Assembly: GCA_946699065.1 (NCBI GenBank)
Contig: CAMPDV010001062.1
Span: 62,001-126,000 of the forward strand
Direction: 5' to 3'
Source of the DNA: Loxodes magnus
Taxonomy: Eukaryota; Ciliophora; Karyorelictea; Loxodida; Loxodidae
DNA: 64,000 bases
Part shown: positions 13,620 to 56,317 of the stretch, in pieces
Position numbering within the stretch: the first letter of the stretch is position 1
How the letters are laid out: the number at the start of each line of letters is the position of its first letter
Made by a program: the position numbers and the translations under genes
Notes under the pieces: model-generated
What the model saw: only the letters and a program-made list of their open reading frames with translations
Told to the model about the DNA's origin: nothing
The model's database searches: none

Positions 13620-14568
13620 TCAACTCCAACCCGTTTCTTCATTATCACCTTTCCATTCATACTACTAAATTTCTTAATTACATACATTACTTTAGTTTTA
13701 TCCTTCCCAGATTATTTTAATATCCTCCTTCTTATCCTCTATTACTTCGGAGATACCTACCAGATTAATTGAAACCTCTTCTCTATCCTCTAGTTTTCAT
13801 TTTTTTAGTAAGGCCTTAATTTTGTTTCTTTAATAAAATAATCTAGTTTTAAAAATTAGTATTCTCCTACTATATACTCTATATTTAGTGATTTAGCTAC
13901 TAAATCTAAATAACATAGTTATTGTTATCTTGATTAAAGCTATTCATGACGACGTTGACATTTTTTAATTACTCATTAATTTTAATCAATACCTAAGAGT
14001 TCTGCTACATGTCTTTTTAAGACTCATTTATGAGTTGCTAAATTTTCTATTCCAATTGAGGATTGTCGAAGCTCATCTATTAGAACTACTAGTGTTACTA
14101 GTGATTCTCTTGCTTAGTCATTATGCTCTACTATAGTTTTAGATAGTTTAACTACTAACTTATTAACTTAGCAATCTTTTTCAACTCTCTCTAAATAGTT
14201 AAACTGTCTTTTAATACGTGAGCGCTTAGAAGCTACATAACTTAACTAATCGTTTTAGCTTGCTATTAAGCTAGCTAATTGTGAAATGATCTAACTTAAG
14301 TCAATTATTTTTCTAGTAAGTCTATGCTATCTAGTATGACCTTTTGCTCTAAGAGCTTCAACAATTAAGAATCTTCACGTAATTTTAAAAGATGTATCTT
14401 ATGAATTTATTAGCAAGTTTAGTAAGCACATTTGATGGACATGTTTTTCTAGTACTATTCAGTTGCACACTCAAAACATATATTATGCTCACAAGGTAAA
14501 ACCGTTGGAACCTTCATCTAGCTATCGAAATCTCCTTGACAAGATTGACATTTAAAAATCTAAGACAT
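13620..14568 (-). CDS. RING-finger / coiled-coil protein (E3 ligase-like)
   Basis: ATG is at 14568-14566. An N-terminal RING reads FKCQSCQGDFDSQMKVPTVL, then PCEHNICFECA and KCAYQTC, giving Cx2C-x15-CxHx2Cx2C-x12-Cx4C. This predicts a zinc-binding ubiquitin ligase domain. About 200 residues of Gln/Leu/Asn/Lys-rich coiled coil follow. The frame continues only if a 28-nt intron is removed (GTAGGAGAATACTAAT...AACTAG, with a TACTAAT branch-site-like core). The spliced frame then gives VSINLVGISEVIEDKKEDI and YEWKGDNEETGWS before a double TGA (13622-13617). Gln is mostly TAA/TAG. It is a clear paralogue of the RING-Ubl gene at 52.8 kb (GDFDSQMK, LPCxHNIC and CxxxxCQ are shared) but lacks the microexon train. 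Confidence 0.75.
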
Positions 14569-14923
14569 TTCACTTTTATTACTTTTTGAAAATTTTACCC
14601 TTAGATAGTTAATTTTTAATTTTGGTAAATTAGTAGTTTTACACAAAAAAATGATGTCATTAAAGCTTTTATATCTTTAGATTTTTAATTTAATTATTAG
14701 TTGTAAATTGAAAATAAAGGTACTAATAACTTAATAGATAAATACTTTACTTTTTTCTTAAAATTAATGCTTGTTTGGAAATATTGCTCTATTAAAAAAT
14801 CAAATTAGGTATTTTTGAAACTAGCAAGTAACCAATAACAGATTCTAATTTTTTTAATCCTGTATGTGGTTATTTATTTTTAATTTTAGAATTAGTTTGA
14901 ATAGACTTATTAAAAGTTTAGAC
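14569..14923. other. AT-rich upstream region of the RING gene
   Basis: Contains the 5' flank of the minus-strand RING gene. No promoter motif is recognised. Confidence 0.4.
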
Positions 14924-24847: not shown

Positions 24848-25905
24848 ATGGAAAATAAAGAAGCACAATTTGTTAAAAGTATCTTTTTAAGAAAAATTCT
24901 AAGACAAAGAAATATTTCCCTAGGCAGAATACCTTTTCTTCTTTTTAAATACGAAATCCTGCCAAACTTGAGCTTTTTAAAAGTTGAAAATAAAATTATA
25001 TACGACTAATCTAAAAGTAATTCTTTAATATTTTAGACTAAACTTTGGCCGGACATTCTTACGCAGTTAACTCAGTAATAATAACTAAAGACTAGAAATG
25101 AATAATTTCAGCGTCTGACGATGAAACGATAAAAATCTGGGATTTCCAGACTGGAACATGTTCGAGAACTTTGAATGGACATACGGATTACATTAGATCG
25201 ATAGCAATAACAAATGACCAGAAATGAATTGTATCGGGAAGTGGAGACAAAACGATAAAAATTTGGGATTTACAGACTGGAAGCTTTACAAAAACTTTGA
25301 CTGAACATAAGGGTAAAATTTTATCGGTAGCAATAACAAGTGACCAGAAATGAATTATATCTGGAAGTGCAGATAATACGATAAAGATTTGGGATTTCTG
25401 TACTGGAATCTGCATGAGAACTTTGAATGGACATACGAATTGAGTTAATTAAATAGCAATAAAAAGTGGCTTGAAATGGATCGTATCAGCATCTTCAGAT
25501 AGAACTATAAAGGTTTGGGATTTTCAGACTGGAAACTGTATAAGAACTTTGACTGGTCATTCAGATTATGTATAATCTGTAGTGTTATCAAATGATAATA
25601 ACCTCATAGTATCTGGATCTGGTGATAAATCATTTAAGATATGGGATTTCTAAACAGGATAATGTATAAGAACTATACCAGAAAATCGTTATGGTGAAGT
25701 GTTAATAAGTAAGGATAATAAGTTCATAATATCAGGAAATCAAGCTAAACTTATTAAGATATGGAATTTCTCATAGGGTGAGTGCGTATGTACTTTATAA
25801 GGTCATACAGATAAAGTAAATACTGTGGCTTTGAGTAGAGATAACAAGTGGTTAGTATCTGGAGCTAATGACAAGACAGTTAGAAAGTGGAAGATTGCTA
25901 ACTGA
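24848..25905 (+). CDS. WD40-repeat beta-propeller protein
   Basis: ATG is at 24848 and TGA stop at 25903-25905. After a ~60-residue N-terminal region there are seven WD40 blades. They show GH dipeptides (LAGHSYAVNSV, LNGHTDYIRSI, LNGHTNWVNQI, LTGHSDYVQSV, LQGHTDKVNTV) and IKIWDFQTG-type ends; blade 6 has lost the GH. The protein is only continuous if a 20-nt intron at 25017-25036 (GTAATTCTTTAATATTTTAG) is removed, if KTGAI-type codons are read as KWI (TGA for Trp in at least four blades), and if TAA/TAG are Gln. It is the clearest single demonstration of the code in the window. WD40 propellers are binding scaffolds; the partner is not apparent. Confidence 0.9.
25017..25036 (+). other. 20-nt intron of the WD40 gene
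   Basis: GTAATTCTTTAATATTTTAG is bounded by GT and AG. Removing it restores the frame into the first WD40 blade (KNQTLAGHSYAVNS). It sets the scale of introns in this genome. Confidence 0.8.
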
Positions 25906-52804: not shown

Positions 52805-55800
52805 ATGTAATCTGAAATGTCCTAGACTGCTAAATGTTATTAGTGTCAAGGAGATTTTGATAGTTAGATGAAAATCCCAATGTTGCTACCATGTAAGCAT
52901 AACATTTGTGCAATCTGTACTTATGATTAGTTTTAGAAAATTTAAGCGATCAAATGTTTTGACTAAAATTGCTAAAAAGTTCATAAGGTTCATCCAGTAA
53001 AACTTCAAGAAGATACTTAGTTACTCCAGCGTCTTGAACAAAAGAACCTCATAGAAAATATAACGATGTTAGAGAATCAATCATTAAGATTACGTTAAGC
53101 CTAAACTTAATTAACAAAGGTCTACAGTGTTTTCATATAATAGTTGATAAAGCACGTAAGCTTTTACATTTTTAAGGAGAATATCGTCTTAAAAAGATAG
53201 TTGGTTTAGCAGAAAAACTAAATCCAAGAATAGTTAAGGTTTTTCAAAATTAAAAAGTAGTTGATGGACAAATAAGGGAACAACTAGTAGTAGTTTGTTT
53301 AGTAAGAATATCTATCTCATCAGAGAGAGCAATAAGTTTCAAAATTGGTAGCCGATGCCTAAAAGATCATCTAGTAGAACAATCAGATATCGGTTAAAGT
53401 TTTTGAAGAGTTAGACTCTTGCAAGTTTAATTTTACTAAAGTAACATAGGAAAATAACTAATTGAAAAAAGAGATATAAAATTTAAGTGATTAAGTTTAA
53501 ATTTAGTAATAGTAGTTATCTTCTTTATAAGCACAGTTGATCTAACTGTAAAAAATAAAACCAGTAGATCAACCTTAACAACCTCCATAACTTTAAAATA
53601 TTCCTTAGTAGAAAAAACCAACGGACATCTAAATAATAATTGTATCGCCTAATGGTAAAACGGTATAGTTATAAGTAAAATAAGAGAATACCATCGACTA
53701 AATAAAACATTAGATTTAATCATAAACTTAGTTACTATCTAGCGGTTTGAGTATCGTTAAGAATAAGTTTGCTTTGGATGACGGTTAAACCGTAGCTAGC
53801 TTAAATTTTTTGAATGGTGAGAAGTTGCAAATGGAATTCAGTAAGTTCAAATTTAATGTTCTCCGTTAAAAAATATTATAGATGGTAAAAATTTTTTTAA
53901 TCTAAATTAAGAGCTTGGTAAGTTTAAGAATTTCCATTTTATTTAAAGGATGCAAGTCTTAAATAATTATATTACAGGGAGTATGGGTTAATAAAATCTT
54001 TAGATGGTAAGATAACATTTAAATTTTTAGAATGTAAAGTTCAATTAACTATTTTGTAAAAAGATTGTAAGTATCTTTTTCATAAATTTAGGGGAAAAAG
54101 AGAGTAAGATAAATTTGAAAATAATTAATAAATTAGGTAATTGAAATTTAAAGGTGAAACTTGAAGTCCGTAAGTGAAATTTAAAGGTGAAACTTGAAGA
54201 ACGTAAGTGAAATTTAAAGGTGAAACTTGAAGAACGTAATTGAAATTTAAAGGTGAAACTTGAAGAATGTAAGTGAAATTTAAAGGTGAAACTTGAAGTC
54301 GGTAAGTGAAATTTAAAGGTGAAATTTGAAGACCGTAATTGAAATTTAAAGGTGAAACTTGAAGAACGTAAGTGAAATTTAAAGGTGAAACTTGAAGTCG
54401 GTAAGTGAAATTTAAAGGTGAAACTTGAAGAACGTAATTGAAATTTAAAGGTGAAACTTGAAGAACGTAAGTGAAATATAAAGGTGAAACTTGAAGAAAG
54501 TAAGTGAAATTTAAAGGTGAAACTTGAAGTCCGTAAGTGAAATTTAAAGGTGAAACTTGAAGAACGTAAGTGAAATTTAAAGGTGAAACTTGAAGTCGGT
54601 AAGTGAAATTTAAAGGTGTAACATGAAGACCGTAATTGAAATTTAAAGGTGAAACTTGAAGGGAGTAAGTGAAATTTAAAGGTGAAACTTGAAGTCCGTA
54701 AGTGAAATTTAAAGGTGAAACATGAAGAATGTAAGTGAAATTTAAAGGTTAAACTTGAAGACCGTAAGTGAAATTTAAAGGTGAAACTTGAAGAACGTAA
54801 GTGAAATTTAAAGGTGAAACTTGAAGAACGTAAGTGAAATTTAAAGGTGAAACTTGAAGAACGTAAGTGAAATTTAAAGGTGAAACTTGAAGTCGGTAAG
54901 TGAAATTTAAAGGTGAAACTTGAAGAACGTAATTGAAATTTAAAGGTGAAACTTGAAGAACGTAAGTGAAATATAAAGGTTAAACTTGAAGAATGTAAGT
55001 GAAATTTAAAGGTGAAACTTGAAGAGAGTAAGTGAAATTTAAAGGTGAAATTTGAAGTGAGTAATTGAAATTTAAAGGTGTAACATGAAGACCGTAATTG
55101 AAATTTAAAGGTGAAACTTGAAGGGAGTAAGTGAAATTTAAAGGTGAAACTTGAAGAATGTAAGTGAAATTTAAAGGTGAAACTTGAAGACCGTAAGTGA
55201 AATTTAAAGGTGAAACTTGAAGAGGGTAAGTGAAATTTAAAGGTTAAACTTGAAGAATGTAAGTGAAATTTAAAGGTGAAACTTGAAGAGAGTAAGTGAA
55301 ATTTAAAGGTGAAATTTGAAGTGAGTAATTGAAATTTAAAGGTGTAACATGAAGACCGTAATTGAAATTTAAAGGTGAAACTTGAAGGGAGTAAGTGAAA
55401 TTTAAAGGTGAAACTTGAAGAATGTAAGTGAAATTTAAAGGTGAAACTTGAAGTCCGTAAGTGAAATTTAAAGGTGAAACTTGAAGAACGTAAGTGAAAT
55501 TTAAAGGTGAAACATGAAGGGAGTAAGTGAAATTTAAAGGTGAAACTTGAAGGGAGTAAGTGAAATTTAAAGGTGAAACTTGAAGGGAGTAAGTGAAATT
55601 TAAAGGTGAAACTTGAAGTCGGTAAGTGAAATTTAAAGGTGAAACTTGAAGAACGTAATTGAAATTTAAAGGTGAAACTTGAAGAACGTAAGTGAAATAT
55701 AAAGGTGAAACTTGAAGAAAGTAAGTGAAATTTAAAGGTGAAACTTGAAGTCCGTAAGTGAAATTTAAAGGTGAAACTTGAAGAACGTAAGTGAAATTTA

Positions 55801-56317
55801 AAGGTGAAACTTGAAGTCGGTAAGTGAAATTTAAAGGTGTAACATGAAGACCGTAATTGAAATTTAAAGGTGAAACTTGAAGAACGTAAGTGAAATTTAA
55901 AGGTGAAATTTGAAGACCGTAATTGAAATTTAAAGGTGAAACTTGAAGGGAGTAAGTGAAATTTAAAGGTGAAACTTGAAGACCGTAATTGAAATTTAAA
56001 GGTGAAACTTGAAGGGAGTAAGTGAAATTTAAAGGTGAAACTTGAAGAACGTAAGTGAAATTTAAAGATGAAATTTGAAGAAAGTAATTAAAATTTTAAT
56101 GTTTCATATTGATTGTAATGTGTTATTTTAGTATGTAAGCATGTTTTAATCTAATTTTTATTTTCAGATCGTACAAGTTTTAATTTATTTAGATGGCAAC
56201 TTTTTTTTAATTATCATTTCAGAATGTAAGTATATTTGAAAATATTATTAGGGGGTAATGAATACTTATTATAATACAGGATGTAAAAATAAGCCTTAAT
56301 ATTTAGTGATGAAGTGA
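52805..56317 (+). CDS. RING - coiled coil - ubiquitin-like protein with a microexon-encoded tail
   Basis: ATG is at 52805. Residues 11-56 form a C3HC4 RING (C11, C14, C30, H32, C35, C38, C51, C56). About 200 residues of Gln-rich coiled coil follow. From about 53610 comes a ubiquitin-like fold: DIQIIIVSPNGKTVQLQV, then NTIDQIKHQIQSQTQLLS, FALDDGQTVASLNF and GEKLQMEF, which track ubiquitin's strands and helix. RING plus Ubl suggests ubiquitin-pathway ligase activity. The first large exon ends at 53840 in phase 1. The remainder (53841-56317) is about 74 tiny introns separated by mostly 3-nt exons. Joining them yields about 80 further residues, and the stop is TGA 56315-56317. A 21-nt intron at 53156-53176 (GTAAGCTTTTACATTTTTAAG) is probable and does not alter the frame. 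Paralogue: the gene at 13620-14568. Confidence 0.8.
53841..54136 (+). other. Upstream train of tiny introns and microexons
   Basis: Consecutive GT(or GC)...AG introns at 53841-53881, 53885-53911, 53918-53948, 53952-53977 (GC-AG), 53981-54003, 54007-54030, 54034-54063, 54067-54091 and 54104-54136. Between them lie exons ATG, AGCTTG, GAT, GGA, ATG, AAT, ATT and a 12-mer GGGAAAAAGAGA. All exon lengths are multiples of three, while intron lengths vary (23-41 nt) and their sequences are unrelated. Joined to the phase-1 base at 53840 they encode NELGWNEYWEKE. The last intron abuts the array with no exon between (AG|GT), as in recursive splicing or a single 63-nt intron. Confidence 0.75.
54137..56083 (+). 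repeat. 59-unit, 33-bp intron/microexon tandem array
   Basis: Exactly 59 units of 33 bp without an indel (1947 bp). Each unit is a 30-nt segment beginning GTAAGTGAAATTTAAAG and ending AACTTGAAG, almost invariant, followed by a variable triplet. Triplet counts: AAC 17, ACC 9, GGA 8, AAT 6, TCG 6, TCC 5, AAA 3, AGA 2, TGA 2, AGG 1. Fourteen units start GTAAT instead of GTAAG; a few have TATAAAG, TGTAACATG or AATTTGAAG variants. Blocks recur: triplets 8-15 equal 45-52, and 26-31 equal 34-39. Read as introns plus one-codon exons in phase 1, the triplets encode IQQQFDQLEQQIQLD and onward. Confidence 0.9.
56084..56306 (+). other. Downstream train of tiny introns and 3-nt exons
   Basis: Introns at 56084-56131 (48 nt), 56135-56167, 56171-56192, 56196-56222 (GC-AG), 56226-56251, 56255-56279 and 56283-56306. 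They are separated by the 3-nt exons TAT, ATC, ATG, AAT, GGG and GAT. The intron sequences are unrelated to the array unit and to each other, yet AG-NNN-GT spacing is kept six times in a row. After the last intron the frame reads TTG ATG AAG TGA. The encoded end is QIYHEWGLMK. Confidence 0.78.

Follow-up and report, generated by a model that had tools for sequence, protein, structure and literature searches.

Candidate serial one-codon exons in the 3' tails of a large RING-like/ubiquitin-like gene family of Loxodes magnus

Results

Structure of the gene and its tail

The window analysed here is a stretch of 64,000 nucleotides (nt), referred to below as the 64-kb window, which comes almost certainly from the macronuclear assembly of the ciliate Loxodes magnus. 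It contains a gene for a RING-like/ubiquitin-like protein, and the 3' part of this gene is a tail of very short GT/GC...AG segments separated almost throughout by three nucleotides (Table 1). The macronuclear assembly of L. magnus has been described as comprising 706 Mbp; it uses genetic code 27, its introns are short, and tandem repeats are abundant (PMC11441545). TAA and TAG encode glutamine (Q) inside the open frames of the window gene and of its family relatives. The exon of the 5' coding part stops after codon position 1 and is followed by the donor at 53841.

The tail, 53841-56306, was parsed by dynamic programming, and all AG-NNN-G[TC] sites between 53801 and 56340 were listed. The parse gave 74 GT/GC...AG introns, together 2,244 nt long; of the exons, 72 measure 3 nt and one measures 6 nt (AGCTTG, 53912-53917), a sum of 222 nt. 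The introns are 22-48 nt in length, plus one of 63 nt. A GT or GC donor and an AG acceptor, boundaries that the parser demands, stand at all 74 introns. The first-pass annotation of this DNA had proposed about 74 tandem tiny introns with one-codon exons at the 3' end of a gene, and the same number was recovered here. Its tally of spacings (71 of 3 nt, one of 6 and one of 12) stands with respect to the 6-nt exon but not with respect to the 3-nt exons, of which the parse has 72; the mismatch lies solely at 54104-54166, where more than one division can be made (Table 1).

Table 1. Features of the window gene and its tail, 5' to 3'
Feature	Position	Strand	Basis or remarks
5' coding part, single open frame (table 27)	52805..53840	+	Frame translation; RING-like finger, coiled-coil-like/Q-rich middle, ubiquitin-like domain
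5' non-repetitive flank	53841..54103	+	Site listing, chain test, parse
5' flank introns 1-4	53841-53881, 53885-53911, 53918-53948, 53952-53977	+	Last one with GC donor
5' flank introns 5-8	53981-54003, 54007-54030, 54034-54063, 54067-54100	+	
5' flank exons, in order		+	ATG, AGCTTG, GAT, GGA, ATG, AAT, ATT, AGA
Ambiguous spot	54104..54166	+	Options: one 63-nt intron; 33+30 nt without intervening exon; 12-nt exon
33-bp tandem array	54137..56096	+	Tandem Repeats Finder, 59.4 copies; per-position entropy
Array unit	54137..56096	+	Nearly constant 30-nt intron (GTAAGTGAAATTTAAAGGTGAAACTTGAAG and variants) and variable 3-nt exon
3' non-repetitive flank	56081..56306	+	Exons AAA, TAT, ATC, ATG, AAT, GGG, GAT
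3' flank introns 1-4	56084-56131, 56135-56167, 56171-56192, 56196-56222	+	Last one with GC donor
3' flank introns 5-7	56226-56251, 56255-56279, 56283-56306	+	
Last coding exon	56307..56317	+	TG ATG AAG and TGA stop, spliced frame; C-terminus ...YHEWGLMK*

Spacing of three nucleotides is specific to the tail

The longest chain at spacing 3 comprises 7 introns in each of the two flanks (296 and 256 nt, outside the array), and at the other spacings from 0 to 12 no chain in the flanks is longer than 2. When each flank was shuffled 1000 times with its dinucleotides preserved, the longest chain obtained was 3, reached 13 and 8 times, respectively. Across both strands of the whole 64-kb window, chains of at least 5 are confined to this tail and to spacing 3, and at 12 other spacings none was found. 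The earlier observation of a 3-nt spacing holds; both flanks that yield these 7-intron chains are non-repetitive.

Genome-wide counts were taken over 705,730,643 bases in 7,843 contigs, for paired AG-Nk-GTAAGT sites at k = 3, 4 and 6 and for three sites in a row at k = 3 and 2. Two consecutive AG-N3-GTAAGT sites occur 11,490 times (reversed-pattern control, 1), AG-N4-GTAAGT pairs 22 times (control, 13) and AG-N6-GTAAGT pairs 22 times (control, 9); 11 of the 22 N6 places sit in C826, which is the array of family copy L023, where a second AG lies ahead of the 3-nt exon. Three consecutive sites were counted 8,934 times for N3, versus 32 for N2. At 8 further loci picked by the pattern, 9 other spacings gave no chain of at least 4 apart from a single chain of 5, which L048 has at spacing 7. 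Of 1911 units defined by donors alone, 1852 have an AG exactly 3 nt ahead of the following donor; in 9 older, heterogeneous tails this holds for 167 of 177.

The form of these ends bears on whether the segments might be internally eliminated sequences (IESs), which would be cut from DNA during macronuclear development and not from RNA. The host is almost certainly a ciliate, and DNA excision of short segments does occur in other ciliates. Against this, the segments are present in an assembly taken as macronuclear, their GT/GC...AG ends and GTAAGT-type donors are spliceosomal, and no classical IESs are reported for L. magnus (PMC11441545). We give this explanation hardly any credence.

Array units combine a nearly constant intron with a variable codon

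In 9 arrays, the exon bases have an entropy of 0.88-1.95 bits per position, and the intron mean is 0.09-0.29, with single intron positions up to 1.29. The commonest intron of each of 9 arrays pairs with 4 to 9 different triplets, and copies other than near-duplicates have small private triplet sets. A nearly constant intron beside a variable codon inverts what is usual for a coding repeat; the introns may have been homogenised while the codons stayed different, or the codons may be under diversifying pressure. Units of differing length (those of the window copy, L037, L038, L042 and others) each hold an internal AG near nucleotide 16-17, approximately the modal intron length of the species.

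The tail belongs to a large gene family

When the end of the open part served as a DNA query, at least 40 matches were obtained (the best 40 of 274 candidates); the ubiquitin-like domain, as a protein query, gave at least 150 matches with E at most 3.2e-17 (the best 150 of 580 candidates); these totals are not gene counts, duplicates and haplotypes (e.g. L014 and L015) being included. The first-pass annotation had described an architecture without known parallel in one gene. The one-codon-exon architecture is indeed seen, but with 150 scored family matches it is a property of a very large family and not of a single gene.

Among 20 copies and the window copy, 15 are complete (near-duplicates included) and, parsed between the domain donor and the stop, hold 52-126 introns each; the other 6 extend past the fetched stretch. 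Exons in the 21 copies measure 3 nt in 2013 cases, 6 nt in 22 and 12 nt in 4, near-duplicates again included and other lengths being penalised by the parser. Odd pieces comprise a second 6-nt exon in L013 and introns of 50-63 nt in L016, L018, L023, L025/L026 and others. In 10 more diverged copies the array introns are 27, 28, 29 or 30 nt long and different in sequence, and the exons are again 3 nt, except for one 6-nt exon in each or, in L041, one 15-nt exon, which the parse requires together with a 57-nt intron. Judged by eye, the 27-28-nt unit is unlike that of the window, and the 29- and 30-nt units resemble it.

As homologous arrays have periods of 30, 31, 32 and 33 nt, the unit is not a multiple of 3 in all homologues. 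This speaks against an unspliced coding minisatellite, in which an 11-residue repeat would carry one variable residue, although the 33-nt unit is divisible by 3, the frames are left open under table 27 and, going by the coordinates, each array triplet of the window would be read as one codon in an unspliced frame continued from the domain. It is further opposed by single-base indels in the array introns of a 99%-identical copy, some of which could be sequencing errors, and by flank introns whose lengths differ by non-multiples of 3. Taken together, these points make a minisatellite highly improbable.

All 8 loci picked for a 3-nt-exon chain carry relatives of the window protein, at 33-73% identity; they come from contigs C5 to C59, among the matches listed, and represent a sample of the listed clusters. 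Two of five two-element singletons are family members; in the other 3 there was no chain, and no match to the family at E<=0.01. L060 (C675) and C4762 hold arrays of the 29-nt intron unit in which the spacers measure 2, 3 or 4 nt. No family match was found in the 2 kb of C675 sampled; these arrays are perhaps decayed tails turned satellite.

The window protein matches the Pfam ubiquitin model at 6.2e-05 and 23.1 bits, below the cut-off of 25.4, and zf-RING_UBOX at 0.0034, below its cut-off as well. Among 5 relatives, the ubiquitin model exceeds its cut-off in 4 and stays below it in L051. RING models are listed, yet sub-cut-off, for the window protein, for 4 of the 5 relatives and for a paralog in the window; the L051 stretch begins 3' of the RING part. 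In comparison with PDB, the longest polyubiquitins ranked at the top, with values, summed over their repeats, of down to 2.3e-27; single ubiquitins gave about 1e-3, and two haemagglutinin chains (about 2e-3) aligned to the coiled-coil-like part. Both domains are recognisable, with ubiquitin above the cut-off in most relatives and RING below it, and the proteins of the family are RING-like/ubiquitin-like. The paralog, at 13825-14577 on the minus strand, is a second protein of RING type with 40% identity across 251 residues; its stretch has no ubiquitin-like match and no adjacent 3-nt chain of at least 5. Elsewhere in the window, 25120-25568 is a 126-bp tandem repeat of 3.6 copies, whose consensus, read by eye, is WD40-like with in-frame TAA and TGA.

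The spliced frame and the C-terminus

The spliced frame, phase 1, is set by the upstream domain and was not fitted. For the counts of TGA, composition and period, helix order and internal AG, the near-identical copies L014, L015, L019, L020, L024, L026 and L041 were removed, leaving 24 copies. Phase 1 contains a single TGA in 2073 codons; phase 0 contains 152 in 2097 and phase 2 contains 66 in 2073. TGA is the sole stop in the code of L. magnus, and coding TGA is depleted ahead of true stops (PMC11441545). The low count traces to the triplet palette and not to the order of triplets: among 1706 array triplets a single one begins with GA, a near-absence that removes TGA from the spliced frame.

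Read in phase 1, the tails are rich in Q, K, E and L, and P makes up 0.1% of 1713 array residues. In phase 1, and in neither of the other phases, the order of residues was more helix-prone than in all 500 triplet-order shuffles (499 of 500 in another run), in a test that is optimistic owing to repeated blocks; the shuffle parts covered 23 of the 24 copies, one array being too short.

For the C-terminus, six-intron chains ending in xxW[GS][LMVW] and then a stop were searched for in 22 tails, without L025/L026, and this ending was found in 18. The search left the residue before W free, and among the 18 tails this residue is E 14 times, Q 3 times and V once. As for the other four tails, L042 ends in YREWGLMK, L045 in YREWVMS and L050 in LYREWGL, and the chain of L053 halts at LYRE. 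When chains were followed without the motif requirement at the 8 pattern-picked loci, EWG was found in 4 (L047, L048, L049 and L054) and QWG in L052. Across 10 members, of which 6 come from loci picked by the pattern, the C-terminal exons are 0.70 identical (shuffled, 0.30), a value inflated by the conditioning of the search on W and G/S, and the intron bodies are 0.56 identical (shuffled, 0.50).

Evidence for and against splicing of one-codon exons

Judging from the DNA, we consider it very probable that the introns are removed individually from the pre-mRNA and that the one-codon exons are translated. What argues for this reading is that exon length is held at 3 while intron sequence and length vary among paralogs. 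Flank alignments of close copies show 27 of 30 splice dinucleotides unchanged, compared with 13 of 28 for other GT/AG dinucleotides within the same introns (Fisher p = 0.0005). Together with the spliced frame and the C-terminal motif, present in most copies, most of the points that can be tested on DNA therefore favour the spliced one-codon exons that had been proposed at the outset.

In the mechanism that we propose, the 3' part of a gene for a RING-like, coiled-coil, ubiquitin-like protein would be divided into exons each as long as one codon, and about 74 very short spliceosomal introns would be excised individually from the pre-mRNA, probably in sequence, because neighbouring sites lie too close for simultaneous use. 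Separate spliceosomes, given their size, are unlikely to bind together to introns so short and 3 nt apart. The 3-nt exons would be joined in phase 1, such that each codon takes the last base of one exon and the first two of the next, and the product would carry a variable K/Q/E/L-rich, helix-favouring tail with an EWGL-type C-terminus. The array would expand and contract by whole exon-plus-intron units, and its growth would leave the frame unshifted because each unit contributes exactly 3 nt. For a 1-nt exon, successive removal of the two flanking introns has been proposed (PMC4674806).

Several observations weigh against splicing of this kind. The parser favours 3-nt exons and penalises other lengths, so that its exon-length tallies are not independent. 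In the flanks of close paralogs, 12 of 45 exon sites and 113 of 381 intron sites are variable, so exons are not more conserved. One near-identical pair, the window copy and L014, differs by 16 substitutions and 11 indel events, none of them in exons, but over six such pairs there are substitutions at 18 of 1311 exon sites and 19 of 10,860 intron sites, a higher rate per site for exons; L039/L040 account for 14 of these 18 and for one exon indel, and the exon changes in such pairs possibly reflect unit shuffling. Three flank acceptors are missing in some copies (L016; L022/L024/L023; L025/L026), L045 is short of one codon of the C-terminal motif, and L025/L026 end in YYQW, without G, the acceptor there being gone. 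No spliced retrocopy was found with a 92-nt spliced 3' query among the best 40 of 51 candidates: 39 of the 40 places begin at base 19 of the query and the remaining one at base 21, both within the last exon. Two joined-exon patterns had no exact match in the genome. A general coiled-coil (heptad) structure of the spliced tails, also considered, is unsupported overall: the a/d contrast in the native phase gave z = -0.6, 2.0, 0.2 and 0.0 in 4 of 16 copies, and neither the repeat periods, taken from the 20 of 24 copies of sufficient length, nor hydrophobic spacing show a general period of 7. L017 and stretches of L046 do look heptad-like as single copies. Array introns of 28-30 nt are moreover long for L. 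magnus, whose introns have a mean of 19.3 nt and a mode of 17 nt, with 93% of them at most 25 nt (PMC11441545), as called with an upper limit of 40 nt (PMC11441545).

To these points is added an internal AG at intron nucleotides 15-18, seen in 1629 of 1911 array units, as a possible competing acceptor. If it were used, an intron of 16-17 nt, close to the 17-nt mode, would be cut from each unit and exons of 15-16 nt would be left. In the window clade, however, the exon would then be 16 nt and the frame would shift with the number of units, and the counts of 28-31-nt introns modulo 3 do differ (0 in 10 of 15 copies, 1 in 4 and 2 in 1). The internal AG is also missing from 37 of 108 units of L017, and in the 9 older tails it is found in 52 of 177 units, compared with 167 of 177 for the AG at -3. 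Its use in this way is accordingly very unlikely.

A further explanation is that the array and its flanks form mostly one large intron, from the donor at 53841 to the acceptor at 56306, with the inner sites as decoys and a protein ending in ...MMK. Read from the sequence, this intron would be in frame, with phase 1 at both ends, a single splicing event would suffice, and the flank exon bases of close paralogs are, as given above, no better kept than the intron bases. Conservation of the inner splice dinucleotides above the inner GT/AG controls is nevertheless unexpected within one intron, and the same applies to the codons of the C-terminal motif, which recur in distant paralogs with different introns, to the exon length fixed at 3 despite intron change, and to the single TGA of the spliced frame. 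On balance the large intron is unlikely to explain the tail; it may occur as an alternative isoform beside one-codon splicing.

Discussion

If the tails are spliced into one-codon exons, the spliceosome would join dozens to more than 100 consecutive 3-nt exons in order, far past what exon definition or spliceosome footprints permit at once. Such genes would offer a natural system in which to examine fidelity, minimal exons and the sequential removal of introns, and as extreme split genes they would test the limits of exon size and density. Mapping reads across 3-nt exons would be difficult, and such tails would probably escape standard RNA mapping and gene prediction.

More speculatively, and with confidence well below even, the tail might serve as a splicing-based generator of diversity, in which any donor could be joined to any downstream acceptor and many tails of differing length and sequence would result. 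Skipping any number of units would keep the frame, because the exons are multiples of 3 nt (3, with 6 or 12 in a few places) and the introns share one phase. If so, each gene would yield an enormous set of tails, multiplied by very many genes with private codon palettes.

No description of serial one-codon exons was found among the titles and abstract openings listed in literature searches, preprints and most subscription journals being outside their coverage, and no mention of the pattern was found in the sections and passages of PMC11441545 consulted. Isolated ultra-short exons of 1-3 nt are spliced by the spliceosome elsewhere, as in the 3-nt exon of mouse Ncam and the 1-nt exon of Arabidopsis APC11 (PMC8042270, PMC4674806); those exons are single, whereas 72 lie in one gene here and the same pattern runs over the sampled family. 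Very short introns are known from ciliates, at 15-16 nt in heterotrichs and with the 17-nt mode in Loxodes, the same organism (PMC11441545), but the array introns described here are 27-30 nt, tandem and one codon apart. The micro-exon genes (MEGs) of Schistosoma also form a gene family and encode a protein largely from strings of exons of 3-81 bp (PMC10526429). They differ in having introns of up to 5 kbp (PMC10526429), compared with 22-48 nt (one 63 nt) in the window; furthermore, the exons here are nearly all exactly 3 nt, most introns measure 17-48 nt, and exon and intron together form a unit that is tandemly repeated. MEG products are secreted, whereas the Loxodes family appears to encode RING-like/ubiquitin-like proteins. 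Near-identical intron copies are a feature shared with introners. Tandem duplication of genomic segments can create introns. Unlike introners, which are scattered across unrelated genes, the copies described here appear, in the loci sampled, to lie in the tails of one gene family, and they keep a fixed spacing of 3 nt.

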